Assembly: GCA_021739695.1 (NCBI GenBank)
Contig: JAIPBM010000007.1
Location: 62,001 to 126,000 of the forward strand
DNA: 64,000 nucleotides
Reading direction: 5' to 3'
Source of the DNA: Flavobacteriales bacterium
GTDB lineage: Bacteria; Bacteroidota; Bacteroidia; UBA10329
Shown: positions 13,155 to 61,826 of the stretch, piece after piece
How positions within the stretch are numbered: the first letter of the stretch is position 1
Layout of the letters: the number at the start of each line of letters is the position of its first letter
Translations under genes and position numbers: made by a program
Notes under the pieces: model-generated
The model's input: only the letters and a program-made list of their open reading frames with translations
Database searches by the model: none
What the model was told of the DNA's origin: nothing

Positions 13155-13979
13155 TTATTTCACCAATAGCTTTTTCACGGTAGATTTTCCTCCAGCCTCT
13201 ATTTGCATGAAGTAAACGCCAGTATTTAAGCTCTTAGATTTCACATCAATCTTGATGTTACCACCCTGATGTTTTTCTTCCAACACTTTTCGGCCTTCTA
13301 CATCAAACATGGTGATCATAATTTCTTCGTCTACATCCTTAGCTGCAACGGTGATCTCATCAATTACTGGATTTGGATAAACAGAAAGCGAAGCTAAAGC
13401 TGCTTCGCTGAGACCCACACCAGTGGCTTCATTGATCGTAAGCGATTCTGTAGCAATGACATCACCATCTGTAGAACCATTGTTGTTAGCAAAATTTCCA
13501 ACTGCATAGAACGTAACTGCACCTGAACCAGAAATTGGTGCAGTCCATTGAAAATCCCACGACCTTGAACCAGAACCCGAGGTTCCATTGAAGCTGTGCG
13601 TCAAGTAGTCTCCTCCAACAATCTGCGAACCTGTGCCAGCAACAAGGTCACCCAAGACAGTTCCAAGTGAATTCTGTGGAGAGAGTTGAAATCCGAATTT
13701 TGCGCCACCCACCTTGATCAGCGTAAGAGTCATATTGTAAGTTGTTCCTCCCACATAGCCTGTTCCCGGCACATCCGATGAAAGTTCAATGGTCTCATTC
13801 GTCAAAGCAGGGCCACCGATATGACATCCCGACCGTGCACAGGTCTGACCATCTGCTGGTGATCCGGTGTGACCTGGAGGTCCTCCCGCATTGTTGGTGT
13901 GCGCCATTCTAAAATTGTAGTCGTAGACCATTCCTGTCGTCAAGAGCAACGATAGTATAAGGGTAAATTTTTTCTTCAT
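13155..13979 (-). CDS. Choice-of-anchor V (reeler-like) protein with T9SS type A tail
   Basis: A 274-residue secreted protein. After a short signal peptide comes the N-terminal signature of choice-of-anchor V domains, GHTGSPADGQTCARSGCH (residues ~35-52), whose C-x3-CH resembles a heme or metal site, then a reeler-like beta-sandwich through ~185. The last ~75 residues carry SVYPNPVIDEITV, MFDVEGRKV, LNTGVYFMQIEAGG and a terminal KKLLVK, which is a T9SS type A sorting domain. It is followed by a clear terminator and lies downstream of porU2 on the same strand, 171 bp away. Surface attachment or release by the T9SS sortase is expected; ligand unknown. Confidence 0.85.
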   Translation of the reverse strand: MKKKFTLILSLLLTTGMVYDYNFRMAHTNNAGGPPGHTGSPADGQTCARSGCHIGGPALTNETIELSSDVPGTGYVGGTTYNMTLTLIKVGGAKFGFQLSPQNSLGTVLGDLVAGTGSQIVGGDYLTHSFNGTSGSGSRSWDFQWTAPISGSGAVTFYAVGNFANNNGSTDGDVIATESLTINEATGVGLSEAALASLSVYPNPVIDEITVAAKDVDEEIMITMFDVEGRKVLEEKHQGGNIKIDVKSKSLNTGVYFMQIEAGGKSTVKKLLVK

Positions 13980-28553: not shown

Positions 28554-29396
28554 TCAACTATCGGTGTTTGCCTTGTTCTCTCCTCTCACTACCAACGCAG
28601 AAACCCAAATGCTCAATTCGTATAATAACATAAGTGGGAAAAATACGAGTATTTGACTAGAAACATCAGGCGGAGTTATGACCGCTGCAAGAATAAGCGT
28701 ACCAACGACCGCATGCTTACGATATTGCCGTAGCGATGATGGCGTTACAAAACCGATCTTGGTCAGAAAATAGATCAGCACAGGAAGTTCGAAAACAACT
28801 CCACTTGCCAAAACCAATGTAGCGATGGTAGAGAAATAACTGTTCAGATCGATCTGATTCACGACCATATCGCTAACATGATAGCTGCCCAAGAAGTTGA
28901 CCGAAAGCGGAGCAATCAGATAATATCCGAACAACACTCCTATGATGAAAAGAAAGGAAACATAGAAAACCATTCCACGGGCATATTTGCGCTCTGTGCG
29001 GTGCAGACCGGGTTTCACAAACCGCCAGATCTCGAAGACCACATAAGGGAACGCGATCACAAAACCTGCAATAATGGAAACCACAATATGTGTACTGAAC
29101 TGCCCAGCCATTGAGATGTTGATCAAACTGAACGGGATATCGGTAATACACAACAGGTCTGAGAGTCCAAACTTATCGGACAACTTACAAAGCATTCGAT
29201 AAGTCCAAAAATCACCGTGTTTTGGTCCGAGCAGAACGGTATCGAACACAAACTCTTTTGCAATGAAAGCAACGATTGCAAAAACAAAAACCGCAGCAAC
29301 CGAACGCACCAAGTGCCAACGCAAAACTTCGAGATGCTCCAAAAAGGACATCTCGCCTTCTTCAATCAACTCGTCTTCTGGAAGCTCCTTGGTCAT
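28554..29396 (-). CDS. tatC: Sec-independent protein translocase subunit TatC
   Basis: A 280-residue six-helix membrane protein that recognises twin-arginine signals. Conserved parts include MSFLEHLEVLRWHLVRS near the N-terminus, the FPYVVFEIWRFVKPGLHRTERKYA block after helix II (split here: FPYVVFEIWRF, then KPGLHRTERK), and VFELPVLIYFLTKIGFV. The ATG at 29396 (MTKELPEDEL) is chosen over one at 29438 because a TACCTTTG -7 box occupies 29403-29410, which would lie inside the longer version. It heads the tatC-DUF5686-lptB operon. The Tat-signal protein at 9772 is a likely client. No tatA is visible in the window. Confidence 0.93.
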   Translation of the reverse strand: MTKELPEDELIEEGEMSFLEHLEVLRWHLVRSVAAVFVFAIVAFIAKEFVFDTVLLGPKHGDFWTYRMLCKLSDKFGLSDLLCITDIPFSLINISMAGQFSTHIVVSIIAGFVIAFPYVVFEIWRFVKPGLHRTERKYARGMVFYVSFLFIIGVLFGYYLIAPLSVNFLGSYHVSDMVVNQIDLNSYFSTIATLVLASGVVFELPVLIYFLTKIGFVTPSSLRQYRKHAVVGTLILAAVITPPDVSSQILVFFPLMLLYELSIWVSALVVRGENKANTDS

Positions 29397-29402
29397 GTGG
29401 CG

Positions 29403-29410
29403 CAAAGGTA
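29403..29410 (-). promoter_or_regulatory. -7 box (TACCTTTG) of the tatC operon
   Basis: On the minus strand TACCTTTGCGCC precedes the tatC ATG by 6 nt. With a start site about 7 nt after the box the transcript would begin at or beside the ATG. The same box with a following GC-rich triplet recurs at 43347, 62546 and 63968. Confidence 0.6.
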
Positions 29411-29450
29411 ATGCCCCATTGCTGTAATTTTCGACCATGATCTTGGTAAT

Positions 29451-30446
29451 TTGCGCAAGGTTGCCAACAGATTGAACAAACTAGTTTCCATATCGGTCTT
29501 CGCCATAGCAGCTGCGCTATTCTTTGCAGTTGCAGCATTCACGTTTAAGGATGTTGAACTCAGTTTGCTGATGCAACATGCTTCAATACCACAGGTTCTA
29601 CAATTGTTCGGAGTTGGTTTGCTATTTCACATCTCGTTCGGGCTGATCATGTGGGTTGGGTTTAAACTGCATTATCACCTCATATTGAAACGAAGTGAAA
29701 TCCTTGTACTACCACTGATGATGCACCTTTTCTTGTACTTGATGCCCGTGAAAGGTGGAATGCTTTTTCAGGTATTCTATTCAAAGCACAAGTATGGTCT
29801 AGACCTGAGCAAAGGTTTTTCTTTAGGCATGATGGTTTTCTTGAACAGCCTTATACTGACCATCATTCTGGGTCTCGCGCTTATCTACCTCATTCCAGTC
29901 GATTCGACCGAACTGAAAATTGCCATTTGGGGCATGGGTTTAGCGTTAACCGGGTTTATCGTTGGAATCAATTTTCTACCATCTACAGGTAAATCAGGAA
30001 GTGGATTTGCAACACGTCTCGTCAATTTTCTTATCAATGTTCGCGTTCAATTGGGAGAACAGATCAAAAACGGAAAATTGTTTATCGGACTTGCGACCAC
30101 AACATTGATCTCGACATTGATTCAAGCATTCTGGTTCTGGAAAACGGCTCAAGTCATTGACATACAGAGTTCATTTCCCGCTGTTCTACTTGTCGTGCTC
30201 GTTCTGCGCATCATTCTTCTGATACGATTTCTACCAGGAAACCTTGGAGTCCAAGAAGTGATGATCGGTGTTGTATTCGCTGCGGCAGGATTTCAATTGG
30301 AAGATGGACTTCTGATAGGCGTAATCACTCGATTGATCTCCGTTTTTTGGTCGGCCACAATTGGACTGCCGGCACTATATTCGAATCTTCATTATTTCGG
30401 CTCGCCAAGTTTGAGTGGGCTTATTGATAGAATCAAGAGAGAGTGA
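29451..30446 (+). CDS. LPG synthase TM-region / UPF0104 flippase-like membrane protein
   Basis: A 331-residue protein with about eight transmembrane helices, of the lysylphosphatidylglycerol synthase TM region (UPF0104) family. The family C-terminal block FLPGNLGVQEVMIGVVFAAAG and VITRLISVFWSATIGLP is intact; relatives such as AglD act with polyprenyl-phosphate sugars, and some members are proposed flippases. There is no ATG at the N-terminus: TTG at 29451 or TTG at 29472 (MNKLVSISVF) are the options, and the second is attractive because a promoter-like TAATTTGC overlaps the first. It is divergent from tatC and overlaps the next gene by a few bases, opening a five-gene glycan-related stretch. 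Confidence 0.8.
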   Translation: MRKVANRLNKLVSISVFAIAAALFFAVAAFTFKDVELSLLMQHASIPQVLQLFGVGLLFHISFGLIMWVGFKLHYHLILKRSEILVLPLMMHLFLYLMPVKGGMLFQVFYSKHKYGLDLSKGFSLGMMVFLNSLILTIILGLALIYLIPVDSTELKIAIWGMGLALTGFIVGINFLPSTGKSGSGFATRLVNFLINVRVQLGEQIKNGKLFIGLATTTLISTLIQAFWFWKTAQVIDIQSSFPAVLLVVLVLRIILLIRFLPGNLGVQEVMIGVVFAAAGFQLEDGLLIGVITRLISVFWSATIGLPALYSNLHYFGSPSLSGLIDRIKRE

Positions 30447-30448
30447 AA

Positions 30449-32383
30449 ATGAACCCGAATTCAAAGACATTTGCAGCAGCAGCCGCTTTTCTCCTAATCG
30501 GGCTTACCGCAGTTTATTGGAATCATTTCGACAACGGTTATCATTTCGATGATAGCCATACGATAGTCAACAACGGTTATATCCGCGACATCGCGAATCT
30601 ACCTTTGTTTTTTCAGGATGCACGAACGACAAGCACCCTGCCCACGAACCAGACCTACCGACCGATGGTCACTGCACTCAACACCATCGATTGTTGGATC
30701 GGTGGTTCCATCGACCCCAAGACATTCCATTGGCACATTTTCATCGAATTCCTGTTGCTGCTTGGGATGTTCTATCTTCTCCTACTCAAAATCTTTGAAA
30801 AGGCAGATGGACAAAAACACAGGCTGGTTGCATTGCTGGGAACGGCCTTTTTCGCATTTCATGCCGCCACAGCAGAAACCATCAATTACATCATTGCACG
30901 GTCTGATGAATTCTCCACGCTGATGGTGGTAATCGGAATACTGATCCATGTATCAAACAGCGGTTGGAAGAAGAAGCTGGGGTTGCTCCCGTTCGTCTTC
31001 GGATGCCTCACAAAGCCGACCACGCTGATGCTCGCTCCAATCCTTTTCATCTACGATCTTCTGCTGGAATCACCTTCAATTTTGATCAAAGAAGAAAAAG
31101 GAAAATGGCTGCCCAAACTTGTAATGGCCTTCAAGAACACGTGGCTCTATTTCGGATCTGGTCTGGCCATGTATTTTTTCACGCAGTCGATGGCTTCGGA
31201 TACGTGGGTCCGCAGCACCACGGCCTCGCCATGGGATTATCTGAACACCCAATTCTATGTGATTGCGCTGTACCTGAAGACTTTCCTTCTCCCAACTCAG
31301 CTTTCAGCGGATCCTGGACTTGAGCTTATCCAACAGCCTTTTGCTCCGAAAGTGATTTGCGGTCTGTTTGTGATTCTGTTGTTGTTGGCCGTGGCCTATC
31401 GAACTTCTAGGAAACGTACCATGCTGCCCATTTCATTCGGGATTCTGTGGTTTTTCGTGGCGCTTATTCCAAGTTCGAGTGTGGTGCCTTTGGCAGATGT
31501 AATGAACCATCACCGCACGTTCTTTCCTTATCTGGGTCTGGTTGTCGCTTTGAGTTGGAGTGGTTACCTGCTTTATCAGAAACTGAGCGGGGTAATTCCT
31601 TCAACTCTTCTCAGAACGGTGTTCACAACAGTAACTATCATTGTTTTGGCTGGAAATGCGTACGCAACATACCAGCGCAACGAGGTATGGGACAGTGAAG
31701 AATCGCTTTGGAAAGATGTAGCCGAGAAAAACCCAAACAAAGGCCGTGGACTGATGGCCTATGGAATGCAGTTGCTTGGGAAAGGGGAACGGCAAGCAGC
31801 CTTGGAAAATCTACTCAAGGCTCAGAAAACATCTTTCGGAAACCATCCGTATCTCATTTCAAATTTGGGCAGATGCTACGCTTCGCTGGGGAATAATGAA
31901 CTCGCCAAACAGCATTTTGAACTTGCTTTGACCGCTGGAGATAACTTCCCCGAATGTCATTACCATTTTGGGATCTGGTTGGCTGCGCAAGGCGATCTTC
32001 TGGGAGCGAAAAAGCAATTTGAAGAACTATTAAGGATAAGTCCATCACACCAAGATGCGCGAATGTTTGTGCAACAGATTGAACAAGAATTGGCTAAACG
32101 CGCGGCACAAAATGCTTCTTCCGTTTCGGCAGAAAAATACCTTGCCTTAAGTTTGCAGTATTATCGAATGAACCAGTTTGAAGATTGCATTGCCATGTGT
32201 GAGAAGGCCATTTCATTACGACCAGATTATGCGGACGCTTACAATAATATGTGTTCGGCATACAACAGATTGAAACAATTTGAGAAGGCTGCGGAATCCT
32301 GCGAAAAGGCATTGGCCATCAAACCAGATTTTGAACTGGCAAAGAATAATTTGAACTGGAGCAAACAGCAGTTGACGCAATGA
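30449..32383 (+). CDS. TMTC-like GT-C membrane glycosyltransferase with C-terminal TPRs (copy 1)
   Basis: A 644-residue protein with an N-terminal block of about ten transmembrane helices (to ~425) and at least five C-terminal TPRs (~435-640). The first extracytoplasmic loop has YHFDDSHTIVNN with an acidic pair, followed by TYRPMVTALNTIDCWIGG and FHAATAETINYIIARSD, the arrangement seen in TMTC/DUF1736 protein O-mannosyltransferases, whose TPRs face the lumen or periplasm. Start: ATG at 30449 (MNPNSKTF), supported by the matching start of the tandem paralog; a GTG six bases upstream overlaps the previous stop. It overlaps copy 2 by 4 nt. Predicted use of a polyprenyl-phosphate hexose donor; acceptor unknown. 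Confidence 0.82.
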   Translation: MNPNSKTFAAAAAFLLIGLTAVYWNHFDNGYHFDDSHTIVNNGYIRDIANLPLFFQDARTTSTLPTNQTYRPMVTALNTIDCWIGGSIDPKTFHWHIFIEFLLLLGMFYLLLLKIFEKADGQKHRLVALLGTAFFAFHAATAETINYIIARSDEFSTLMVVIGILIHVSNSGWKKKLGLLPFVFGCLTKPTTLMLAPILFIYDLLLESPSILIKEEKGKWLPKLVMAFKNTWLYFGSGLAMYFFTQSMASDTWVRSTTASPWDYLNTQFYVIALYLKTFLLPTQLSADPGLELIQQPFAPKVICGLFVILLLLAVAYRTSRKRTMLPISFGILWFFVALIPSSSVVPLADVMNHHRTFFPYLGLVVALSWSGYLLYQKLSGVIPSTLLRTVFTTVTIIVLAGNAYATYQRNEVWDSEESLWKDVAEKNPNKGRGLMAYGMQLLGKGERQAALENLLKAQKTSFGNHPYLISNLGRCYASLGNNELAKQHFELALTAGDNFPECHYHFGIWLAAQGDLLGAKKQFEELLRISPSHQDARMFVQQIEQELAKRAAQNASSVSAEKYLALSLQYYRMNQFEDCIAMCEKAISLRPDYADAYNNMCSAYNRLKQFEKAAESCEKALAIKPDFELAKNNLNWSKQQLTQ

Positions 32384-34353
32384 ACCTGAATTCAAAGACT
32401 TTTGCATCTGTCCTTGCTGCCTTGATGGTCGTTGCACTTACAGCAGTATATTGGAATCATTTTGATAACGGTTTCCATTTTGATGACAGCCACACGATCC
32501 AAAACAATGGCTTCATCAAAGACATCCACAATTTGCCGCTGATCTTTCAGGATGCGCGAACTACGAGCAGTCTGCCTCTCAATCAGGCCTATCGTCCCAT
32601 GATAACCAGTTTGAATGCGATTGATTTTTGGATTGCAGATTCGCTCGACCCAACGGTATTCCATTGGCACATTTACCTCGAATTCCTGCTTCTTCTTGCA
32701 ATATTGTACTTGGTGTTTCTTCATCTGTTTGAAATGGCCGATGGCCAAAAACACTATTTGTTAGCTATTCTCGGTGTCGGATTCTTTGCCTTTCATACAG
32801 CCACGGCCGAAACCATCAATTACATCATTGCGCGCTCGGATGGATTTTCCACGCTGATGGTGCTCGTTTCCGCCTTGATTTACATGAAAGCGAAAGGCAA
32901 TTTCAAGCAGCTAGCGCTGATTCCTTTTATTATAGGATGCTTGGCAAAACCGACCACGCTCATGCTGGCACCTATTTTATTTATGTACGAACTATTGCTT
33001 CAAAAGCCTTCATTGCTGGTGAAGGATGAGCAAGCAAAACTTATTCCGAAGATGGCAAGCGCGCTGAAAGGCACTTTCAGCTTTTTTGTTGTGGGAGTTG
33101 CGATGTACTTGTTCACTCGCTCCATGTTCTCAGCTACATGGAAGCCAAGCGATATCTCAGCTCTCAAGTATCTGAACACTCAACCTTACATTTTCTGGGT
33201 TTACATTAAAACCTTCTTTCTTCCGACCGGTCTTTCGGCCGATACGGACCTTAAACTGATTAGCGAATACTTTTCGCCTCAGGTTTTGTGGGGACTTCTG
33301 GTAATTGCAGCAAGCATTGGGCTGGCTTTCAAATTCGCCACCTTCCGCAAAACCTTGCCTATTGCCTTCGGAATATTGTGGTTTTACGTAGCGCTGGTTC
33401 CAAGCTCTAGCGTTATTCCTCTTGCGGAAGTTATGAATCATCACCGCACGTTTTTTCCATACATCGGTTTGGTGATGGCTGTTGTTTGGGCCGGGTTTCT
33501 ACTTGTTCAGAAAATCACGAAGGGAAAACCGTCAGCAATGTCTCGTGCCATTGTTACCGTTTTGTTGCTAGGACTGTTCGGAGCGCATGCCTATGGCACT
33601 TACCAACGTAATGAGGTTTGGGACAATGAAGAAACGCTTTGGTATGACGTGACGGTGAAAAGCCCAAAAAATGGCCGTGGACTGATGAATTACGGCCTCA
33701 CTGAAATGCAAAATGGCAACACGGAATCGGCCATCTCTTATTTTCAAAGGACGATGAACACTTCCTACGGTAGACATCCATATGTGTATCTGAATATGGG
33801 CATTGCCAAGAATGCACTAGGCATGAGAATCAACGACCAGAAACTGAAAAATGAGGGCGAAACGTACCTGAAACAAGCAGTGCAGATAGGCCCAGGATAC
33901 CCCGATTGCCACTATTATTACGCATTTTGGCTTGCCAATAATGGCCGAGTCGATGAAGCAGTTAAGCATTTGAGCAAAGCCTTGGAATTGAGTCCAGCGC
34001 ATCAACAGGCAAAATCGTTATTGGCATCGCTTACCACCACGGCCGAAGACCGAATTAAGAACATGGAAACGGAAGCAGCACGTCTCAAAACGCCAGAAGC
34101 TTACTTAGACCTAAGCCTCAAATATTACAATTTGGGTCAGTACGAAAACTGCATAAAAGCCTGCAACGAAGCGCTTCAACTGAAACCGGATTACGCGGAA
34201 GCATACAATAATATATGTAGCGCTTACAATCAGTTGAAGATGTTCAATGAAGCGATTGAAGCTTGCAATCGGTCGATTGAACTGAAGCCTAATTATGAAC
34301 TTGCCAAAGGCAATTTGAACTGGGCAAAATCTCAATTGGCGAAAAATCAATAG
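32380..34353 (+). CDS. TMTC-like GT-C membrane glycosyltransferase with C-terminal TPRs (copy 2)
   Basis: A 657-residue tandem paralog of the gene before it, alike from end to end: same N-terminus (MNLNSKTFASV versus MNPNSKTFAAA), same FHFDDSHTI loop, same ATAETINYIIARSDGFSTLM, same PSSSVIPLAEVMNHHRTFFPY and the same closing LKPNYELAKGNLNWAKSQL TPR. It differs mainly by a ~12-residue insertion between TPRs and by many substitutions, so the duplication is not recent. The ATG overlaps the upstream stop by 4 nt (translational coupling). Its own end overlaps the convergent sulfotransferase by 7 nt. Two similar enzymes may act on different acceptors or sugars. Confidence 0.82.
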   Translation: MNLNSKTFASVLAALMVVALTAVYWNHFDNGFHFDDSHTIQNNGFIKDIHNLPLIFQDARTTSSLPLNQAYRPMITSLNAIDFWIADSLDPTVFHWHIYLEFLLLLAILYLVFLHLFEMADGQKHYLLAILGVGFFAFHTATAETINYIIARSDGFSTLMVLVSALIYMKAKGNFKQLALIPFIIGCLAKPTTLMLAPILFMYELLLQKPSLLVKDEQAKLIPKMASALKGTFSFFVVGVAMYLFTRSMFSATWKPSDISALKYLNTQPYIFWVYIKTFFLPTGLSADTDLKLISEYFSPQVLWGLLVIAASIGLAFKFATFRKTLPIAFGILWFYVALVPSSSVIPLAEVMNHHRTFFPYIGLVMAVVWAGFLLVQKITKGKPSAMSRAIVTVLLLGLFGAHAYGTYQRNEVWDNEETLWYDVTVKSPKNGRGLMNYGLTEMQNGNTESAISYFQRTMNTSYGRHPYVYLNMGIAKNALGMRINDQKLKNEGETYLKQAVQIGPGYPDCHYYYAFWLANNGRVDEAVKHLSKALELSPAHQQAKSLLASLTTTAEDRIKNMETEAARLKTPEAYLDLSLKYYNLGQYENCIKACNEALQLKPDYAEAYNNICSAYNQLKMFNEAIEACNRSIELKPNYELAKGNLNWAKSQLAKNQ

Positions 34354-35273
34354 CCGTAAATGGCCATTTCTTCCCCACAGATTCGCTCAAACTGATTCTT
34401 CTGCTCCGTACTCCAATCTGCGTATGAAGGGAAAGTATAACGAGGAGTTGAATTATAAACCTGATTAATCTCTGCATACCAATCGTCAGGATTCATTTTG
34501 AGCTCTAGAAACTGAAGGACGTTCTCATCGAAATAATCAAAGTCTTTTCTCAGATTTTCGAAGAGAATGAGATGATCGGTATTCTCACGGATGAAACGAT
34601 TATCGGCAGCCCAAAGCCAACATAGTTTTTCGAAACGGGACATGGTTTTCCATTCACCGGAAAAAGGATCGTTTTCTGGCGGAAATATCACATCGCCCAT
34701 TGGGTCTTTCCGATTAAAAAGTTCGCGCGACATCAGAGACCGAAGTACATTTTTCGGGTCGCGTACCAGTTGAAATTGCTTCGCATTCGGAAATACTTCT
34801 TTCATAGCCACACAATGCCTTCTCAAAAACGGATTGATTTCTCCGTACACATCAAAATCGTTGTCTTTGATTCTAAAATATATTTCTGCCTTTCGGTACT
34901 CAGAAGCATATTCCTTTGCTGCAGAATCTGAATGCATGGCTTTGGCATAATACCAGTAATCATTCACATTCGCTTCGTGTTGCACTATCGCATTTTGCGC
35001 ATGGCGATTGAGAAAATCGGCCAAGAAAGTGGTGCCACTCCTGAAAACTCCGTACCCGAAAAAAAATCGCTTTGAATCAAGCCAAGCGTCAATTTCGTTT
35101 TGCAGCAATTGACCTTGTTTAGAAGTGCTTTCGACATGCGATTCTGCCTTCATCCGCAACATGGAACGAGCTGCGAAGTTGAATCCGGGAATATAAATAT
35201 CGTTGTGGCGGTACACGTCCATCAACCGTGTATAAAACCGCTTTTTTACCTGCGGATTTTCGTCACTCATCAA
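34347..35273 (-). CDS. Sulfotransferase family protein
   Basis: A 308-residue predicted sulfotransferase using PAPS. The 5'-phosphosulfate loop is GVFRSGTTFLADFL (residues 75-88) and the 3'-phosphate segment is QLVRDPKNVLRSLMSRELF (~166-185), which gives the conserved RDP-x-x-x-xxS pattern. No signal peptide or membrane helix, so it is cytosolic. It overlaps the GT2 gene upstream by 11 nt, hence the two are co-transcribed on the minus strand, and it converges with the second TMTC-like gene with a 7-nt overlap. The acceptor is not known; with the neighbouring glycosyltransferases, sulfation of a glycan or glycolipid precursor is the simplest idea. Confidence 0.85.
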   Translation of the reverse strand: MMSDENPQVKKRFYTRLMDVYRHNDIYIPGFNFAARSMLRMKAESHVESTSKQGQLLQNEIDAWLDSKRFFFGYGVFRSGTTFLADFLNRHAQNAIVQHEANVNDYWYYAKAMHSDSAAKEYASEYRKAEIYFRIKDNDFDVYGEINPFLRRHCVAMKEVFPNAKQFQLVRDPKNVLRSLMSRELFNRKDPMGDVIFPPENDPFSGEWKTMSRFEKLCWLWAADNRFIRENTDHLILFENLRKDFDYFDENVLQFLELKMNPDDWYAEINQVYNSTPRYTFPSYADWSTEQKNQFERICGEEMAIYGY

Positions 35274-36141
35274 CGCTATCCTTTCTTATCTGTGAAAGTT
35301 GTTCGGCAATCAGTCCAAGAAAAAAGAACAAAAGGCCCGTTGTAAAACCGAGCATAGCTCCAGTACTTACTCCTCTACCTCTCAATGCAATCGGAATTCC
35401 CCACGTAAGCGCCACCGCAATGCTTAAAAACGCTATTGGAAAGAAAACACGCATTGGATTGAACAGAATAACGATGTTCAGAATTTCCTTTACGGTTTCA
35501 ATGGCAGTTAGTGTACTTATCGTGCTCACCCCGGCAGTTCTTGGTTTGATATTTATTGGTTGTTCTAAAACCAAATGCCGCTTACTGATAAACACCATTG
35601 CGATAATATCGCTGTAAGCCATGTGATCTGGACACAATCGGATATAGCGCTTGGCCATTTCCGTATTGTAAATTTTCATGCCCGAGTTGATATCATTTAT
35701 GTGAATAGGCAACAGCAATTTGGCAAACCAACGGATCAGCCTTTTTCCAAGACCTCTATATAAGGATGCATCTTTGTGTGCCAATCGACTACCAACGACC
35801 ATGTCAGCATCTGAGTTCTGGATGCTTTGATGCAATGCCAGAACGTCTTTCAGATCATGCTGTCCATCGGCATCAATGGTGATCACATAAGTGGTATCCG
35901 CATTTCTGACACCTGTTTTTATTGCACCTCCATAACCTCTGTTCACCTTGTGCGAATAAAACCGAAACGCATCAGCACCTTCATGCTCCTTCAGCACCTG
36001 AAGCGTGTTGTCTTTTGACCCGTCATTTACAATGATCAACTTCATCCCGTTCGCTTTTACAAAAATCAAAAGTTCGGGCAGAAGCACACGTAATGAAGCT
36101 TCTTCGTTGTACGCAGGAATGATAATTGAAAGGTCGTTCAT
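35263..36141 (-). CDS. DPM1-like family 2 glycosyltransferase with two C-terminal membrane helices
   Basis: A 292-residue GT2 enzyme. LSIIIPAYNEEASL at the N-terminus, IVNDGSKDNT (residues ~37-46), the DxD motif D90-A-D92 in TIDADGQHD, and NSGMKIYNTEMA near 165 match polyprenyl-phosphate mannose/glucose synthases (dolichol-phosphate mannosyltransferase type). Two hydrophobic helices (~232-252 and ~260-284) anchor the C-terminus, as in the GtrB/DPM1-like variants. The likely product, a polyprenyl-phosphate hexose, is exactly the donor that GT-C enzymes such as the TMTC-like pair need. It is first in a two-gene minus-strand unit with the sulfotransferase and is divergent from recQ. Confidence 0.87.
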   Translation of the reverse strand: MNDLSIIIPAYNEEASLRVLLPELLIFVKANGMKLIIVNDGSKDNTLQVLKEHEGADAFRFYSHKVNRGYGGAIKTGVRNADTTYVITIDADGQHDLKDVLALHQSIQNSDADMVVGSRLAHKDASLYRGLGKRLIRWFAKLLLPIHINDINSGMKIYNTEMAKRYIRLCPDHMAYSDIIAMVFISKRHLVLEQPINIKPRTAGVSTISTLTAIETVKEILNIVILFNPMRVFFPIAFLSIAVALTWGIPIALRGRGVSTGAMLGFTTGLLFFFLGLIAEQLSQIRKDSVDE

Positions 36142-36403: not shown

Positions 36404-38608
36404 ATGGAAATAGAAGTTGGATCAGATCTAAAGGAAGCGCTTAAGAAGCACTTCGGCTTTAACAAATTTAAAGGGGAGCAAGAGCTCATTATTAAAAGTG
36501 TGCTCGAAGGAAAGGACACATTTGTCATCATGCCAACTGGCGGTGGCAAATCGTTGTGTTATCAATTACCTGCATTGCTTTCGGAAGGAACAGCTATCAT
36601 CGTTTCTCCACTTATTGCCTTGATGAAGAATCAGGTGGACTCCATCAGAAGCTTTGGCAGCGAAGACGGAATCGCACATTTTCTCAACTCATCATTAAAT
36701 AAGAGTGAGGCAGAAAAAGTTCGCACAGACATAAAGAACGGTGTGACCAAATTGCTTTATGTTGCTCCTGAATCATTGAACAAGCAAGAGAACATCGATT
36801 TTTTCAGAGATGTGAATATTTCGCTTGTCGCCATTGATGAAGCGCATTGCATCTCCGAATGGGGTCACGATTTCAGACCTGAATACCGCAAACTGCGCCC
36901 AATGATTGAGGCGATTGGAAATGTACCTGTGATGGCCCTGACCGCCACGGCCACTCCTAAGGTGCAGCAGGATATCCAGAAGAATTTGGGAATGACGGAT
37001 GCGAGTGTATTCAAGTCATCTTTCAATAGAGATAACCTGTACTACGAGATTCGTCCGAAATCGAAAAATGTGGCGCGCGATATCATTCGCTACATCAAGC
37101 AGCACGAAGGAAAGTCAGGTATTGTCTATTGTCTCAGCCGAAAAAAGGTAGAGGAAATGGCAGAAACACTGCAAGTAAATGGAATCAAAGCGCTTCCATA
37201 TCACGCAGGATTAGATGCTTCGTCAAGGGCTAAAAATCAGGATGCATTCCTAATGGAAGACGCGGATGTGATCTGTGCTACCATTGCTTTCGGAATGGGC
37301 ATTGATAAACCAGACGTTCGATTTGTCATTCACCACGACATTCCAAAAAGTTTGGAAGGCTACTACCAAGAAACTGGAAGAGCCGGAAGAGATGGCGGAG
37401 AAGGAAATTGCGTTGCCTTTTACAGCTATGACGACATTACCAAGCTTGAGAAATTCATGCAAGGCAAACCGATCTCGGAGCAAGAAATCGGCAAGCAACT
37501 ACTTGGAGAAGTTGTTTCTTACGTAGAAACATCTGTTTGCAGAAGGAAATTCATCCTTCACTATTTCGGGGAAGAATTTGATGCAAAACGATGCGATGAA
37601 CATTGCGATAATTGCAAGCATCCGAAAAAGCAGGAAGAAGCACAAGCAGAACTCACCACGTTCATCCAAACTGTTGCAGACGTGAAGGAGAAGTTCAAGA
37701 TCAAGCACTTAGTGAACATCATGCTTGGTGTGAATTCAACACAGATCAAATCGTACAAGCACGATACGCTTGAAGCATTTGGAGAAGGTGCTGATAAGGG
37801 AGAGCGCTACTGGCAATCGCTTGGACGTCAAGCTATCATCAATGGTTTCTTGTCAAAAGACATTGAGAATTACGGTCTTTTGAAGGTAACGGATGCCGGT
37901 CACGCCTACTTGGCCAAACCAACTTCGTTCATGTTGACCATTGACCATGATTTTGAAGCTGCTACAGAAGCAGAAGATGCCATGCCGATGGGAGCCATGA
38001 AAGGTGGTGGCGCTTCAGATGAAGTCTTGCTGAAAATGCTTAAGGACCTGAGAAAGGATATTTCCAAAGAAGAAAACCTGCCTCCGTTTGTCATTTTCCA
38101 AGATCCTTCGCTAGAAGATATGGCGTTCCGCTATCCGATCACGATGGATGAGTTGAAAGACATCACCGGTGTTGGAGCTGGAAAAGCCAGAAAATACGGT
38201 GAACCATTCTTGGAACTTATTCAGGAATATGTAGAAGAGAATGAAATTGAGCGAGAGCAGGACATGATCGTAAAAACGGTTGTGAACAAATCGAGCAATA
38301 AGGTTTACATCATCCAAAGTATTGACCGCAAACTGGACCTAGAAGATGTAGCAGACGCGAAAGGTCTTACAATGGATGACCTTTTAACGGAGATCGAACA
38401 CATCGTAAGTTCAGGCACAAAAGTGAACATCGACTACTACATTGATGATGCCGTTGATGAAGACAAGCAGGATGAGATCTACGAGTATTTCCAAGAGGCC
38501 GAAACAGAAGGTATTGAAGAAGCACTTGCAGAACTTGGCAATGAGGACTACACTGAAGAAGAGATTCGATTGGTCCGCATCAAATTCATTTCCGAATTCG
38601 GACATTGA
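36404..38608 (+). CDS. recQ: ATP-dependent DNA helicase RecQ
   Basis: A 734-residue 3'-5' DNA helicase of superfamily 2, for recombination and fork repair. Walker A MPTGGGKS (43-50), DEAH in VAIDEAHCISEWGHDFRPEY (~142), motif VI YYQETGRAGRDG (~322), zinc cysteines in CRRKFILHYFGEEFDAKRC and HCDNCKHP (~374-404), winged helix (~415-520) and HRDC (~540-612, ITGVGAGKARKYG) are present in order. A further ~120-residue acidic C-terminal extension with helix-turn-helix character follows, as in many Bacteroidota RecQ proteins. A strong terminator lies 22 nt downstream. Length is above the ~600 residues of E. coli RecQ because of this extension. Confidence 0.95.
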   Translation: MEIEVGSDLKEALKKHFGFNKFKGEQELIIKSVLEGKDTFVIMPTGGGKSLCYQLPALLSEGTAIIVSPLIALMKNQVDSIRSFGSEDGIAHFLNSSLNKSEAEKVRTDIKNGVTKLLYVAPESLNKQENIDFFRDVNISLVAIDEAHCISEWGHDFRPEYRKLRPMIEAIGNVPVMALTATATPKVQQDIQKNLGMTDASVFKSSFNRDNLYYEIRPKSKNVARDIIRYIKQHEGKSGIVYCLSRKKVEEMAETLQVNGIKALPYHAGLDASSRAKNQDAFLMEDADVICATIAFGMGIDKPDVRFVIHHDIPKSLEGYYQETGRAGRDGGEGNCVAFYSYDDITKLEKFMQGKPISEQEIGKQLLGEVVSYVETSVCRRKFILHYFGEEFDAKRCDEHCDNCKHPKKQEEAQAELTTFIQTVADVKEKFKIKHLVNIMLGVNSTQIKSYKHDTLEAFGEGADKGERYWQSLGRQAIINGFLSKDIENYGLLKVTDAGHAYLAKPTSFMLTIDHDFEAATEAEDAMPMGAMKGGGASDEVLLKMLKDLRKDISKEENLPPFVIFQDPSLEDMAFRYPITMDELKDITGVGAGKARKYGEPFLELIQEYVEENEIEREQDMIVKTVVNKSSNKVYIIQSIDRKLDLEDVADAKGLTMDDLLTEIEHIVSSGTKVNIDYYIDDAVDEDKQDEIYEYFQEAETEGIEEALAELGNEDYTEEEIRLVRIKFISEFGH

Positions 38609-48738: not shown

Positions 48739-51700
48739 TTAGTTAAGTATTACGCGGTGTGTATCTGTTCCTTTTTCGGTTTCTATGCGAATGAGGAAAA
48801 CGCCAGCGTTCGCGTTCAATCCGAAGGTGGTTCGGTTGGTGTTTAGGTTAGACGTATGAACGATTCGTCCAGTCATTTCCAGCACCTGAACGTTTCCTTT
48901 CTCGATATTCTCAGAAAGAATAATGTTCAGTTGGTTTCCGTTGGAAGTGTAAACGCGAGAGCTTGCCTCTGCTCCATCTTCAATTCCAACTGCGGTCATC
49001 CCAAAATGCAGCACAAAACGGTCTCCGATGTTGCCAGCATCTGACGTGAAAGCGTAGTTCTGTTCCACATTCAGATCTTGGAAGATATTGAGGTAGGTGT
49101 CTTCGAGGTGAACCGTTTCACCCACTACGGTGATATCGTTTGCGTTGAGCGTGTAGTTTCCCTGAGATGGAATCTTTACTCCCAACGGAACAGTAGGGTT
49201 GTTCTCGGTGCTGGTCAGTCCGTTGATCACCAAGGTGTCGTTGTCCTCTGTGGTGTACAATTGCGGAATGGCGGTATAAAGCTGCGGTACGTTTGCTCCT
49301 GCCCAATATTTACGCGAGTCGTAATCATCATACGCATCCTGTGCAGCAGCATCGAACATTACGATGGTCTCATCGCTTACCGTTCCGTTACTGAGGGTCA
49401 TTCTTACCAGACCTTCCTGTACGGAGGTCTTGTAAATACCTGCTTGGGTTCCGTGGCTTCTATCGTTCAGATCGAAGCCGAGCGAGCCCGTGTTGCCATC
49501 TGCATCTACCCGAACCCAGAATGACTGTGTAGGCGGAATATCGCCCGTTACATCACCATTGCCATTGTTGTTAGTGCCAATGCCGCTGGTGGCATTGTAC
49601 GTATCGTAAAGCATGGTGCTTCCATTGTGGGTGCGATACCAGATGGTCGGTTCCAAGTTGGTACGATTGGCGGTGTTCCAACTTAATGTGCTTGGGTAAG
49701 GATTACCAACCAGATTGTAGCCTCTGTTCGTGGCCGTTGTACCTGTTCTGGTAAGACCTGATGCGGTCTGCGCTCCGTTGTTGAAGGTTGTTCCTTCAAA
49801 AGTGACTGTTCCGGTTACCCCCATTCTGGCAACGTAGCCAGTTGTTGGCTGCAGCGTTGTACTTCCATCGGTTATCTGAGTATAGCTTTGCGATGTTTCG
49901 TTCGCACTCCACAGTTTGTTGCCATTCAGTAGGTCGTAAGTTTCGGCATCGGCTCCCGTTACCGGAGTGCTTACGTACCAGAAAAGCCCATCAGGTACAA
50001 ACCCTCCCGAACCGGTCAGGTACTGCTCCATCTGGCAAGAACCTGAACCTGTTATTGTTCCTTCGGTGATGAGCGAACCGATTCCTGTAGCATCTGCTTT
50101 CACCATAATGGTTCCATCGTTATCCGTATTGCCAGTGATGGTCAAAGCTTTTCCAGCATTTACGGTAAGCACCGCACCGTTCTCAACCAGAAGATCCGCA
50201 CATGTGGCAGGCGAAGCGGGGTCGTTTTCGATACTCGGCTGATTGACCGCTGAACTCGGAATGAACGCGTTCTCCGAACCGTTGGGCACTGTACCAAAAC
50301 TCCAGTTTCCTGTATTTGACCACGTAGAGTTCGTTGCTCCCGTCCATTCATTGTAAACCAGAACATCAACAGTGATCGTCATTACACTGTCCAAACCGCA
50401 TTGGTTCGGAATGGTATCCATATACGTTCCCGATATTGTGTAGGTCTCGTCTCCACTTGGTACCGTGTACGAGTTGATGGCCGTAACGGAATATGCGGAA
50501 CTGTTATCCACGCATCGCGAATAGACCGCGAAATAATCGTGTTTGAATGGGGAAGAAACGTCCCGAACGAAGAGACCGCCAATGTAGATGATGTTCTCAT
50601 CTGCCATCAATACCGTAACCTGATTGTATGGGCTCGGATTCCAAGTCTGTGCTGCAGCCGTTGTCGAATCCAACTCGGCCAACCAATCGCGAGACTGGCC
50701 TCCAATCGCGTCAAAAGCACCGCCCACAAACACGCTTCTATCTCCAGATGCAACTGCCCGAGCTACACTGGAAGCGTTCGGGTTCCAAGAATCCAGACCA
50801 TCTGTTGCAAGATCGATGGCAGCCGTGTTGTTCCTTGTGTTGAAATCGACACTACTGAATGATCCGGCAATGAAGAGCTTGGAATCGCTTGCATCCATGG
50901 CGTAAACACTTGGAACCATCCCCGTAATGTTCTTGGAAAATGCATCCAACGTTCCCGTACCCAATTCAAAAGCGGCCAGACATGTTCTGCCCGTTCCGTT
51001 CATAGTTGTGAATTCGCCTCCAGCAAAAACACGGTTGCTGGCAACTTCCAAGCTGCGTACAAGGCCATTCGGATTCGGATTCCAAGCAATTGGGTTGATG
51101 CTGTTTGTCAAAGCAGCAGCCAAGTAGTTTCTAGACTGACCGCCAATGGATGTGAAATTACCGCCAATGTAGAGCGTGTCCTGACTGAACTTCAGCGCGC
51201 GCACATCATCATTTGCCCCAGCCGGCATCCAAAAAACCAGATTTCCTGATGCATTAATGGCTGCAAGGTTATTACGCGAAGTGAAATCGACATTATTGAA
51301 AGCTCCGCCCACATAGACGATTCCATTTCGCTTTTCGATGGCGTAAACGGCACCGATCACTTGCGGATTCCAGCTGATCGGAACTCCAGTTGCTTCATCC
51401 AGCGCTACGATTCCTTGTCTTTCGGTTAGGCCAAGATTGGTGAATTCACCACCTGCATACACACGATCTCCGTCCACCGATAGCGTGTGAACGGTATTGT
51501 TTGCCCGGGGATCCCAACTCTGAACCGTTCCTGAAACACGGTTGGCCGCGGCCAATCGATTACGGTCCCATCCACCTACAACGTTGAACTCGCCTCCGAA
51601 ATATGCGTTGCCGCCAGAAACCTGAACCGTTCGCACAATGCCGTTCGAATTAGGATTGAATGTGGTAACCGTTCCATCTGTCTTGATCGCTGCAATTCGG

Positions 51701-52632
51701 TTACGTGCAGAGAATCCAACGGAGTTGAAAGCACCCCCGAAATAGAGCGTATCGTTCACCAATTCCATGTCGTAAACCGCTCCATTCGCGTTCGGATTCC
51801 AGCTGGTTTCGTTACCCACACCTGTGGTGGAGAATGCTGCAATATTATTGCGCGTTACGCCTGATGCGATATTGAATGAACCGCAGGCATAGACTGTACT
51901 TCCGTCAACAATGACATCGTAAACGTCTCCGATAACCTGAGGATCCCAAGATGTGGCAACTCCCGTAGTTGCGCTCACTGCCCCCAGTTTGAATCTGCTC
52001 ACCCCCGCCAACTGGGCAAAGTTGCCACCCACATAAACTGTGGTTCCACTCACCGCAATGGTGCGCACTGCCAAGTTTGCTCCAGGATTCCAAGAATTGA
52101 CCGCCCCTGTTGTGGCGTTCAACGAAGCAATATTCATTCTAGAACTGCCGCCTATATTCACAAACTGACCTCCAACATAAACGGTGCTTCCACTCACCGC
52201 AATATCATACACGAAGCCAGATGATACGTTCGGATTCCAAGATGTGAGTTGGCCATCTCCATCGATATGCGCCAGCCTGTTGCGCGTTTGTCCATCAATG
52301 TTGGTGAAATCGCCACCAATGTACCAACCACCGTTTCCGTCCTTCTCGGCCACGTAAATGTTTCCATTGGTTACCGGAAACCCCATATTGGGATTACCCG
52401 AATTCAAACTGATGGGAACACCATAAGGTCGATTGGCCGCTACGTTATCAAAATCGCCACCAACGTAAACAATGCCATCTGCTTTGTGAATGGCGTGCAC
52501 CGGGCCATCGGGCTCCCACCATTTGGGTTCTACCTCAATGTTCTGAGCTATGGATGAAAAACAAGTGGCCAACAACAGCACAAAGACTGCGATAACGTGC
52601 ATACTTTTTCGGGTTGGATTGGTATGTTTCAT
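48739..52632 (-). CDS. Giant beta-propeller-repeat protein with T9SS type A tail
   Basis: A 1297-residue secreted protein. After the signal peptide (ending SIA-QNI) residues ~35-680 hold about 13 repeats of ~45-50 residues with the core VYVGGxFxxIGG-xSRNxLAAI and SWNPN, the delta-60/WD-like repeat that folds as a beta-propeller or solenoid. A T-P-S-G-D-E linker and a ~500-residue module follow (NTGNWSFGTVPNG, LTITGNTDNDGTIMVKAD, SYTQITDGSTT, NRGYNLVGNPYPSTLSW), ending in a T9SS type A domain (QLNIILSENIEKGNVQVLEM, GVFLIRIETEKGT). The same module closes the next gene upstream. Surface display is expected; adhesion or matrix binding is inferred. Confidence 0.87.
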   Translation of the reverse strand: MKHTNPTRKSMHVIAVFVLLLATCFSSIAQNIEVEPKWWEPDGPVHAIHKADGIVYVGGDFDNVAANRPYGVPISLNSGNPNMGFPVTNGNIYVAEKDGNGGWYIGGDFTNIDGQTRNRLAHIDGDGQLTSWNPNVSSGFVYDIAVSGSTVYVGGQFVNIGGSSRMNIASLNATTGAVNSWNPGANLAVRTIAVSGTTVYVGGNFAQLAGVSRFKLGAVSATTGVATSWDPQVIGDVYDVIVDGSTVYACGSFNIASGVTRNNIAAFSTTGVGNETSWNPNANGAVYDMELVNDTLYFGGAFNSVGFSARNRIAAIKTDGTVTTFNPNSNGIVRTVQVSGGNAYFGGEFNVVGGWDRNRLAAANRVSGTVQSWDPRANNTVHTLSVDGDRVYAGGEFTNLGLTERQGIVALDEATGVPISWNPQVIGAVYAIEKRNGIVYVGGAFNNVDFTSRNNLAAINASGNLVFWMPAGANDDVRALKFSQDTLYIGGNFTSIGGQSRNYLAAALTNSINPIAWNPNPNGLVRSLEVASNRVFAGGEFTTMNGTGRTCLAAFELGTGTLDAFSKNITGMVPSVYAMDASDSKLFIAGSFSSVDFNTRNNTAAIDLATDGLDSWNPNASSVARAVASGDRSVFVGGAFDAIGGQSRDWLAELDSTTAAAQTWNPSPYNQVTVLMADENIIYIGGLFVRDVSSPFKHDYFAVYSRCVDNSSAYSVTAINSYTVPSGDETYTISGTYMDTIPNQCGLDSVMTITVDVLVYNEWTGATNSTWSNTGNWSFGTVPNGSENAFIPSSAVNQPSIENDPASPATCADLLVENGAVLTVNAGKALTITGNTDNDGTIMVKADATGIGSLITEGTITGSGSCQMEQYLTGSGGFVPDGLFWYVSTPVTGADAETYDLLNGNKLWSANETSQSYTQITDGSTTLQPTTGYVARMGVTGTVTFEGTTFNNGAQTASGLTRTGTTATNRGYNLVGNPYPSTLSWNTANRTNLEPTIWYRTHNGSTMLYDTYNATSGIGTNNNGNGDVTGDIPPTQSFWVRVDADGNTGSLGFDLNDRSHGTQAGIYKTSVQEGLVRMTLSNGTVSDETIVMFDAAAQDAYDDYDSRKYWAGANVPQLYTAIPQLYTTEDNDTLVINGLTSTENNPTVPLGVKIPSQGNYTLNANDITVVGETVHLEDTYLNIFQDLNVEQNYAFTSDAGNIGDRFVLHFGMTAVGIEDGAEASSRVYTSNGNQLNIILSENIEKGNVQVLEMTGRIVHTSNLNTNRTTFGLNANAGVFLIRIETEKGTDTHRVILN

Positions 52633-52676: not shown

Positions 52677-55600
52677 TCAATTCAAGAACACGCGGTGCGT
52701 TTCAGTTCCGTTTAGCGATGCTATTTGCACGAGGTAAACTCCAGTGTTCACACTCAGATCAAGAACCGTTCTTGTTGCATTCATAGCAGTTGCTGCAACA
52801 ACACGGCCCGTGAGGTCAAGCACCTGAACATTCCCATTATCTACATTTTCAGGAAGGATGATATTCAACTGATGGTTGGAAACATATACCCGTGAATACT
52901 GCGTCAACTCGTCAATTCCCGTAACACTCATTCCGAAATGAAGAACAAAGCGGTCACCGATGTTGCCTGCAGCTGAATTGAAGCTGTAGTTAGGTTCCAC
53001 GTTCAGGTCTTGGAAATGATTGAGGTAGGTGTCTTCCAAGTGAATGCTTTCTCCAACAACGGTGATGTCGTTGGCGTTGATGGTGTAGCTGCCCTGTGCG
53101 GGTAGCTTCATCCCTAATGGAACTGTTGGGTTGGTATTCGAGCTGTACAATCCGTTGATCACCAGCGTATCTTCCTGTAAATTCATGTACAGCTGAGGAA
53201 CGTTACTCGACCAATACTTGTGGCTATCGTAATCATCGAAACCATCTTGGGCAGCCACCTCGAATAGGATGATGGCCTCGTCAGAAACGGTCTCATTGCT
53301 CAGTGCTATTCTCACCAAACCTTCTTGCGCTTCCGTCTTGTAAATACCCGCCAATGTTCCGTGGCTTCGGTCTGCATTCGCAAAGTCCAATTGGCCTGTA
53401 AGTCCGTCTGCCGAAACACGTACCCAGAACGCCTGAGTAGGCGGAATACTTCCATCCACAGCACCACCACCGTTATTGTTGGTCCCGATCATACCACTCG
53501 CGTTGTAGGTATCGTAAAGCATGGTGCTGCCTTGGTGTGTGCGGTACCAAAGGGTGGTTTCGAGGTTGGTCTTTACGGCATTGTCCCAACTTACGGTTGA
53601 TGGATACGGATTGCCTACCAAGTTGTATCCTCGGTTCGCGGCCGTTGTGCCTGTTCTTGTGAGACCTGAAGCGCTTAGATTGCCGCTGTTGAAGTGAATG
53701 TTCTGGTCCACCTCATTGAATGTGATTGTCTGCGTGCTTCCCATTCGGGCAACATACCCAACCGTTGGCACCATTGGAACTGCACCCACGGTTTGCAGAG
53801 TATAGGATTGCGTTGTTTCGTTTGCCGTCCAAAGTTTATCGCCCGTATCCACATTATAATCGTAGATGTAATTTCCGTTAACTGGACTACTCACGTAGTA
53901 GAAAACACCGTTAGGGGTTGCTCCTCCAGAACCCGTTAGGTATTGCTCCATTTTGGAGGCACCACTTCCGGAAATGGTTCCTTGGGTAATGAGCGAGCCG
54001 ATGCCCGTGGCGTCTGCTTTCACCAGAATGGTTCCATTGTTCACAATATCTCCCGTTACAGTAAGCGCTTTGCCTGCATCAATGGTCAGAATTGCCCCTG
54101 CATCGAGAAGAATAGACTGACATTGTACCGGTGAAGCAGGCAATGACGTGATATGTGGTTGATTGACTGGAATAGAAGAAATGCTTGCCACATCCAGAAG
54201 ACCAGGCACAAGACCTGAACCCCAGTTGGTGGCATCGTTCCAATCTGTTGAAGTAACGCCCAACCAAGAAATGGCAATTGGAAGAATAGTTACGTTGATG
54301 GCCATCACGCTATCGCAACCAGCAACGTTGGCAATCGTGTCCATTACCACTTGCGTGCCGAGGTTGGTAATGGTCTGGTTTCCGCTCGGAACGGTGTATG
54401 ATACCGTTTCCGTTACGCTGAAAGTTGAGGTCGTTTGGAGTTGATTCTCCGCTGCACCAACGTCTCTTCTTCCATCTGAAAGTGACACATTCTGAGCATC
54501 AGAAGCATCTGCCGGATTGCCTGAATTGATGGCAATACTTCCGCAGCCTGGAACCATCGTAAAAGTTAATCCTCCATTGTTTTGCAACGTTCCGAGGTTC
54601 AATTGCAGATCGGTTGCACCCAGAATGTCCGTTGCCGTGCTGCCGCTAATGGATACATCATCAAAAATGTTGTGGCCCAGGGAAGTGATGGTCGGGCTGT
54701 GACTGTGGTAAATGTTGCTAGAACCGTTGAGCGCCACAATGCTGCTTTGCAGATTGAGGTTGGAGGTTGTACCTGCCGATGCAATGGTATTGGCGTAAAT
54801 ACCGCCACCGTTGGAGGATGCGGAATTGTCCGTGAGCGTAGAATTGGTTACTGTAAGCGCTTGCGTGGCCGTTTGGTTTGATGATGAGACCGAAGAGAAT
54901 ATGCCACCTCCGTTGCTACCAGCGGCATTTCCTGTTATAGTGCTTGTATGGATATTGACAGTGGCAACCGTTGCGGTACTGACCGAGCCACTGTTAATGA
55001 ACATACCACCGCCATTGAAGGTCGCCTGATTGTTGGAAACGGTTGAACTGGACAACGATACGGACGAAGTCCCCGTGCCGAATGAGGCCTGAATGCCACC
55101 ACCGTTGGTGCCTGATGAATTTCCATCAATGGTTGAATTCGACACACGCAATTCCACACCACCCTGAAATGCCAGGCCACCACCGAAACCATCGGCCATG
55201 TTGTTGTTGATGACCACATTCTCAAGAATAAGTTTTGCGGTATTGGATGAGAAGATTCCACCGCCCATAGCAGCTGTACCCGAACCCGTGGCTTGTCCAT
55301 TCTGTACGGTTAGATTTCTGAGAATCGTACTGTCCGTCCCCGTTATCTCGAATATTCTTGACGAGGCATTTCCATCAATGATGGTGTTGTCAGGTCCATT
55401 TCCGATGATCACCAGATTGTTGCTGAAAGAAATATCTCCTGACGTAAGCACTATCGGATTGCCATTCGTACTCGCATCGAAAATGATCGTATCGCCATCG
55501 CAGGTTGAGGCAACGGCATCGCGCAGCGAACCGGGACCCGAATCGTTGGTGTTGCTTACAACTCCTACTGTTTCGAGAACGGTGAGCGTGATGGTCAGGA

Positions 55601-61755: not shown

Positions 61756-61826
61756 ACAGTCAAAAATACTCAATCTTAGAACGAGTTGTTATTGCTTGTA
61801 TCTATCTCTTTCGCAAAACCCACCCG

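Follow-up and report, generated by a model that had tools for sequence, protein, structure and literature searches.

We analyzed a stretch of 64,000 nucleotides from the genome of a Flavobacteriales bacterium (contig JAIPBM010000007.1 of assembly GCA_021739695.1, positions 62,001 to 126,000, here C7:62001-126000), referred to below as the window. The host genome is 4.24 Mb in size and 98.5% complete. Between the genes for TatC and the helicase RecQ, the window contains five genes of a candidate system for glycosylation with lipid-linked sugars, including two tandem membrane glycosyltransferases of the GT-C type that resemble the animal TMTC proteins. These genes and their borders are the following (coordinates within the window).

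28554..29438, minus strand: TatC, the left border of the slot, outside the pathway (PF00902, 220 bits; border kept in relatives)
29451..30446, plus strand: UPF0104 / LPG_synthase_TM membrane protein of the MprF-flippase-domain / AglD-C-terminal type, a putative lipid-sugar flippase (PF03706, hydrophobic segments)
30443..32383, plus strand: GT-C1, a TMTC-like GT-C protein (residues ~1-430) with a C-terminal tetratricopeptide repeat (TPR) domain (~430-646) (predicted model, alignment)
32380..34353, plus strand: GT-C2, a second TMTC-like GT-C protein and tandem copy of the first (55% identity to GT-C1, same motifs)
34347..35273, minus strand: sulfotransferase (Sulfotransfer_3), predicted to be cytosolic and dependent on 3'-phosphoadenosine-5'-phosphosulfate (PAPS) (PF13469, motifs)
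35263..36141, minus strand: glycosyltransferase of family 2 (GT2), probably of the polyprenyl-phosphate-sugar synthase kind (ArnC / AglJ / dolichol-phosphate-mannose-synthase like), with C-terminal membrane segments (PF00535, NCBIfam)
36404..38608, plus strand: RecQ helicase, the right border of the slot, outside the pathway (Pfam DEAD, RQC, HRDC and RecQ_Zn_bind; border kept in relatives)

The five genes, their coordinates and the overlaps of 4 to 11 nt given in the initial annotation were all recovered; from the UPF0104 gene to the GT2 gene, the successive overlaps are 4, 4, 7, and 11 nt. The last value is counted from a TTG start that is directly followed by an ATG, so that this overlap is possibly 8 nt. 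The same annotation had treated the genes as one module. They are indeed present, but they form two converging units on opposite strands, which had not been stated: UPF0104, GT-C1 and GT-C2 on the plus strand face GT2 and the sulfotransferase on the minus strand, and the units meet in the 7-nt overlap. A single operon is thus ruled out. Since neighborhoods of GT2 with GT-C and of UPF0104 with GT-C recur in other genomes, as a proposed check of co-occurrence revealed, the grouping is more than chance.

The GT-C proteins and their likeness to TMTC enzymes

GT-C1 and GT-C2 are 55% identical over almost their full length and are the only full-length members of their family in the host genome. An AlphaFold model of GT-C1, based on a 49-sequence alignment, had a mean pLDDT of 94.2. 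Its residues ~4-430 match GT-C enzymes (VIA-align 2), and the remainder matches TPR proteins. The VIA-align matches include the catalytic subunit of the yeast oligosaccharyltransferase (Z 19.7; 335 aligned residues, root mean square deviation 4.3), ALG12 (Z 18.6; 324, 4.6), ArnT 5f15 (Z 18.4; 334, 4.6), Pmt4 (Z 17.2; 344, 4.7), Pmt1-Pmt2 (Z 16.8; 336, 4.5), and PglB (Z 15.5; 321, 4.6). According to this model, the GT-C part is of the ArnT/PMT/STT3 fold, and the fold assigned initially is borne out by matches with Z values between 15 and 20. We counted 11 membrane helices in the helix list of the model, with the conserved residues sitting in outer loops; the odd number of helices would place the TPR domain on the outer side. 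The 50 matches listed for a Foldseek search with the full model were all to TPR proteins or dominated by the TPR part, and a profile of the GT-C part found no relative among the sequences of solved structures, the single match (E 1.8) being meaningless.

The alignment was compared with a list of motifs of animal TMTC proteins (M1-M5 and M7; PMC7801869), and the conserved residues follow their order and loops. Invariant in all 49 aligned GT-C sequences are D36, D37, R73, P74, E145, N148, Y149, R153, K191, D290, N355, H357, and R358. The acidic pair of the donor site (D36 and D37, the DD of M1 in the first outer loop), the loss of which would have spoken against such an enzyme, is thus kept in 49/49 sequences. 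Of motif M2 (SHKSYRP), Y72 is present in 48/49 and R73 and P74 in 49/49, whereas SHK is lost and N-Q-x precedes YRP in most sequences. Motif M3 (RxD, EL2) is represented by R153 (49/49) and by Asp (46/49) or Glu (3/49) at position 155, and M4 (KE(T/Q)xxT, EL3) by K191 (49/49), which is followed by Glu, Pro or Gln in 21, 20, and 8 of the 49 sequences, respectively. At M5 (DW, EL4), D290 is found in 49/49, followed at positions 292-293 by Asp (48/49) and Trp (32/49); neither window copy has the Trp. Finally, M7 (ERxxY, EL5) appears as HRxxF, with His and R358 in 49/49 and Phe in 47/49.

TPR families pass their Pfam cut-offs in the window proteins, and no Pfam model covers their GT-C part; PF08409 (TMTC_DUF1736) is absent from both copies. 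Among eight GT-C parts scanned, PF08409 appeared below its cut-off (13-15 bits versus 27), at the M5 loop, in 3/3 close relatives, 0/2 window copies and 0/3 distant paralogues. The likeness to TMTC claimed in the initial annotation was therefore supported in part. Like animal TMTC1-4, the window proteins have the fold with 11 predicted helices, the DD of the first outer loop, YRP, RxD, the Lys, the loop Asp, the Arg, and a C-terminal TPR domain; unlike them, they remain below the PF08409 cut-off, lack SHK and the Glu of KE(T/Q)xxT, have a shorter TPR part, and are encoded near donor genes. Judged from alignment and model, they resemble TMTC in architecture and probably also in chemistry, and we do not class them as TMTC. 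Runs of distant TMTC-like GT-C/TPR paralogues (~20-25% identity) were observed at L062, L063, and L064, with up to four per 20 kb in one genome; the family that they form is larger than the clade described here.

This clade, defined by a score of at least 200 bits in a sample of the class and of at least 400 bits in genus g63 (where G372, at 43 bits, counts as negative), has a patchy distribution. It was detected in 7/8 congeners and 15/50 other genomes of the class (22/58), and in the phylum sample in the host genome and 1/295 others (2/296). Some absences are soft because the genomes are incomplete (G001, 70%; G043, 69%). There are at least 406 relatives of the GT-C proteins; of the 80 kept, 78 have Bacteroidota-type titles and 2 are metagenome-assembled genomes labelled Acidobacteria and Geobacteraceae. 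The loci on contigs labelled in this way, L128 and L133, carry close GT-C relatives and may reflect transfer or misbinning.

Partner genes and exchange at the tatC-recQ slot

The GT2 protein matches PF00535 with 96.6 bits, and its top NCBIfam models are PpgS, AglJ, and ArnC, every one below its equivalog cut-off. Among solved structures, it matches ArnC over its full length (9hwj/9bhc, 3.4e-14) and a dolichol-phosphate-mannose synthase (5mlz, 4.8e-9). Similarly, PpgS, AglJ, PgfS or ArnC was the best model in 10/10 scanned GT2 neighbors of other GT-C genes. These matches support its earlier annotation as a protein of the polyprenyl-phosphate-sugar synthase type. For the UPF0104 family, flipping of lipid-linked sugars is a prediction in PMC5898192 and PMC12713373. 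The window protein has many hydrophobic segments and matches PF03706 with 62.9 bits (cut-off 33.4), and two further copies are encoded elsewhere in the host genome. Its AlphaFold model (pLDDT 67) is too weak to use, and a sequence search of the PDB provided nothing useful.

The sulfotransferase matches PF13469 with 38.8 bits. It contains the motifs RSGTT and LVRDP...S, which we take to be the 5'-PSB and 3'-PB of PAPS sulfotransferases, and an APS kinase is encoded elsewhere in the host genome (208 bits). The best match in a PDB sequence search was protein-tyrosine sulfotransferase 1 (E 0.09). As the protein has no membrane segment, sulfation is most likely a cytosolic reaction that modifies either a sugar precursor or the lipid-linked sugar. 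Sulfation of finished surface proteins is unlikely for an enzyme that has no hydrophobic segment.

To describe the neighborhood across relatives, 103 loci were retrieved (the distant-paralogue loci L059-L064 are not among them), from which 11 same-contig duplicates as well as L058 and L128, which have no GT-C with the expected start, were dropped. The remaining 90 loci correspond to 25 groups at 55% GT-C identity. The counts are affected by genes that the open reading frame (ORF) picker overlooked, such as the GT2 gene in L038. The 73 GT2 ORFs at these loci were distributed as 44, 12, 7, 6, and 4 over successive 2-kb bins from the GT-C gene, equivalent to 1.32, 0.41, 0.30, 0.28, and 0.23 per 10 kb; the density of GT2 genes within 2 kb is thus 3- to 6-fold that farther out. 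A GT2 gene lies within 3 kb of GT-C in 44/90 loci and 15/25 groups. The UPF0104 gene does so in 15/90 loci, 14 of which also had a GT2 gene in the count, and the fifteenth (L038) has one by tblastn. In five loci of the same genus, window included, the UPF0104 gene adjoins GT-C. The UPF0104 proteins near GT-C are of two sequence types (18-22% identical), one in the genus of the window and the other in ten Aquimarina-type loci, in which the UPF0104 gene faces GT-C and GT2, themselves running in the same direction.

Within the same 3 kb, we also found genes for DUF2304 proteins (14 of the 90 loci), carbamoyltransferases (9), methyltransferases (9), sulfotransferases (7), acyltransferase-3 (4), GNAT (3), and a deacetylase (1). 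Excluding DUF2304, at least one of these tailoring genes was present in 30/90 loci. Conserved arrangements are illustrated by L055, where GT2, DUF2304, GT-C, and carbamoyltransferase genes follow head to tail in the same orientation, a few bases apart, and by L070, where the order GT-C > sulfotransferase < DUF2304 < GT2 recurs at 39% GT-C identity. Three components are optional and specific to certain lineages, namely, the sulfotransferase, the UPF0104 gene, and the second copy of GT-C. In 19/90 loci (e.g., L104:291-1073), a separate TPR protein (cluster c5) is encoded at most three genes away from GT-C.

Large differences were observed between the borders of the slot and its contents. Identities to the window of TatC, RecQ, and the best GT-C were, respectively, 80, 90, and 76% for G008, 81, 86, and 69% for G006, 80, 90, and 46% for G004, 81, 89, and 40% for G002, and 65, 76, and 43% for G005. 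The GT2 protein of G004 is 87% identical to that of the window, whereas its GT-C is 46% identical; the GT2 of G002 reaches 26%. In the tree, the GT-C proteins of the window genus fall into three separate supported clades, namely, the window with G008, G006, and G003 (100/100), G004 with G005 and G007 (100/99), and G002 with Aquimarina-type sequences (99/99), and within this one genus all three occupy the same TatC-RecQ interval. The tandem duplication of GT-C predates the split between the window and G008. On the evidence of these sequences, the tatC-recQ slot keeps its borders, whereas the GT-C alleles and tailoring genes inside it are exchanged.

Proposed glycosylation system and its candidate acceptor

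Taken together, these data point to a TMTC-like, three-component polyprenyl-phosphate-sugar glycosylation system that includes a cytosolic tailoring slot with exchangeable occupants, here the sulfotransferase, and we regard this as the probable function of the locus. The sequences of the other loci are best read as showing the same slot occupied by a carbamoyltransferase, methyltransferase or acyltransferase. Judged from the protein families, GT2 would load one sugar onto undecaprenyl or a similar polyprenyl phosphate in the cytoplasm, the soluble sulfotransferase would sulfate this sugar at the cytosolic side with PAPS as donor, and the UPF0104 protein would flip the lipid-linked sugar across the inner membrane. 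GT-C1 and GT-C2, whose fold and donor-site residues come from model and alignment, would then move the sugar to an acceptor on the periplasmic side, which the TPR domain may help to bind.

This neighborhood fits known three-component systems (PMC11127046), complemented by a tailoring enzyme that varies between species. GtrABC and the Citrobacter GT136 pentofuranose system likewise combine a lipid-sugar synthase, a flippase, and a swappable GT-C with accessory tailoring enzymes. In contrast to them, UPF0104 replaces the GtrA, SMR or MATE flippase, a TMTC-like GT-C with TPR replaces the O-antigen-specific GT-C, and a sulfotransferase and other tailoring enzymes occur. The ArnC-like GT2 and ArnT-fold GT-C recall the aminoarabinose pathway, from which the window differs by the TPR domain; none of ArnA, ArnB, and ArnD is encoded among the genes between TatC and RecQ, the part of the genome searched for them. 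The same three kinds of protein are found together in archaea, where a UPF0104 protein (arCOG00899) is encoded beside a PMT/STT3-like protein and an AglD-like glycosyltransferase (MJ_1079, MJ_1080; PMC5898192); TPR and sulfotransferase go unmentioned in the part of that source describing this cluster.

Several observations weigh against this system. In TMTC models, a Glu is located at the metal; both window copies have Pro instead, and this Glu is present in just 21/49 sequences. GT-C1 alone has Gly at position 292, which is Asp in 48/49. Near GT-C, UPF0104 is absent from 75/90 loci, the sulfotransferase from 83/90, and GT2 from 46/90. Moreover, joint transcription of the five genes is not implied, because the two units converge.

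Concerning the acceptor, a secreted protein is more likely than a glycan, and collagen-like proteins with Gly-X-Thr repeats are the best single candidate. Strong collagen matches (best PF01391 E below 1e-6; window genome excluded here and in the second sample) were present in 22/22 GT-C-positive and 8/36 GT-C-negative genomes (Fisher 1.1e-9), or in 15/15 versus 7/35 without the congeners (7.6e-8). With E values up to 1e-3, the respective numbers were 22/22 and 14/36. In the second sample, which covers one genus (g63), the effect was weaker (21/21 versus 34/52; 9e-4). Of the genomes with just distant TMTC-like paralogues, 2/14 had collagen matches. The SprB adhesin, a weak control because it is near-ubiquitous, was found in 22/22 versus 30/36 genomes (p 0.07); among SprB-rich genomes, collagen accompanied 20/20 GT-C-positive and 5/16 negative ones. 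At the locus level, an ORF containing 12 or more Gly-X-Y triplets was present in the GT-C flank of 15/90 loci (6/25 groups), and 13/16 such ORFs lie within 4 kb of GT-C. In L053, this ORF ends ~30 to 110 bp upstream of GT-C, depending on the start of GT-C. The one flanking protein scanned matched PF01391 with 221 bits. The window genome encodes nine collagen-like ORFs with Thr at position Y in 0.10 to 0.41 of the triplets.

A more specific and rather doubtful proposal is a bacterial TMTC-type protein O-glycosylation with collagen-like clients, in which the GT-C clade would place a sugar that is sulfated, carbamoylated, methylated or acylated, depending on the species, on threonines of Gly-X-Thr stalks, and trading of GT-C alleles at a fixed slot would generate strain-specific coats. 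Such clients have a precedent by another route, since the collagen-like BclA of Bacillus is glycosylated (PMC8968730). On the other hand, we found no collagen-like gene in the window, and many collagen-bearing genomes have no GT-C. The p values of the co-occurrence ignore shared ancestry, and Thr at Y did not differ between collagens of GT-C-positive and negative genomes (medians 0.42 in 20 and 0.52 in 18 genomes, p 0.74), in a comparison of 20 stretches per side that were hand-picked from the listed matches and hence non-random.

Further collagen-like genes were observed at other loci. At L099, L113, L118, and other Aquimarina-type loci, such a gene follows GT-C, GT2, and UPF0104 at a distance of 2.5 to 3.3 kb, and up to 98% of its triplets have Thr at Y; L053 and L119 combine GT-C, a sulfotransferase-family gene, and collagen-like genes within a few kb. 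The host genome of the window encodes, at L147 (G000 C5:171813-179681), a collagen-like ORF of 2622 aa that contains 391 Gly-X-Y triplets.

The type IX secretion system (T9SS), whose clients the initial annotation had named as possible acceptors, was rejected as a discriminating correlate. At least 150 sorting-domain matches were indeed found in the host genome; however, 57/59 sampled genomes contain them with or without GT-C, and the domains are therefore uninformative on the acceptor. Four window ORFs have a sorting-domain match near their ends (13155-13979, 48739-52632, 52677-58469, and 60775-61773, all on the minus strand), two of which are very large (1297 and 1930 aa).

Considering the likeness to the Gtr and Arn systems, the same machinery may instead have a glycan as its acceptor, namely, lipopolysaccharide, capsule or exopolysaccharide, by analogy with Gtr seroconversion or Arn modification of lipid A, with swapped GT-C alleles altering linkage or position. 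This is a serious possibility, though not the one that we favor: known three-component systems modify O-antigens (PMC11127046), ArnT is among the structural matches of GT-C, GT2 resembles ArnC, genes for DegT, epimerases, and polysaccharide deacetylases in the vicinity of some relatives recall the Arn pathway, and the conserved GT2 and divergent GT-C of G004 form the pattern of a shared donor with a type-specific transferase; yet collagen-like proteins accompany the GT-C clade, and the window slot is devoid of polysaccharide assembly genes.

It appears unlikely that GT-C2 alone is active and that GT-C1 is decaying or has a regulatory role. The GT-C1 branches are longer (0.27 and 0.46 versus 0.16 and 0.15), and the Gly at position 292 would fit decay, whereas the remaining motif residues are kept and the frame has stayed open in two species. 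Somewhat less credible still is a chance association of the GT2/sulfotransferase pair with the UPF0104/GT-C genes at one border-defined insertion site, as might be suspected from the convergence of the units, which share no promoter region, and from the many relatives that lack one component or another; the enrichment of GT2 next to GT-C, the one-direction run of L055, the order repeated in L070, and the ten Aquimarina-type loci with GT-C, GT2, and UPF0104 argue against it. Finally, it is very improbable that GT-C is the missing transferase for the general O-glycosylation of Bacteroidota at D(S/T)x. PMC12871550 describes the enzyme and the core flippase of that system as undiscovered, its first sugar as a hexose, mannose, and its occurrence as broad across the phylum, whereas the GT-C clade is patchy (22/58 class genomes and 1/295 of the phylum sample).

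PMC7801869 refers briefly to prokaryotic homologues of TMTC, and in searches of the open-licence literature we found none in bacteria with an assigned function. A bacterial clade with a donor-making gene nearby would make the chemistry easy to reconstitute, and the collagen-like proteins are a genome-level correlate that names a candidate acceptor. If the proposed system is correct, TMTC-type action would gain a simple model in bacteria, and the collagen form of the proposal would account for the decoration of collagen-like surface fibers in some Gram-negative species. The exchangeable tatC-recQ slot is a place to seek surface variation in Bacteroidota.

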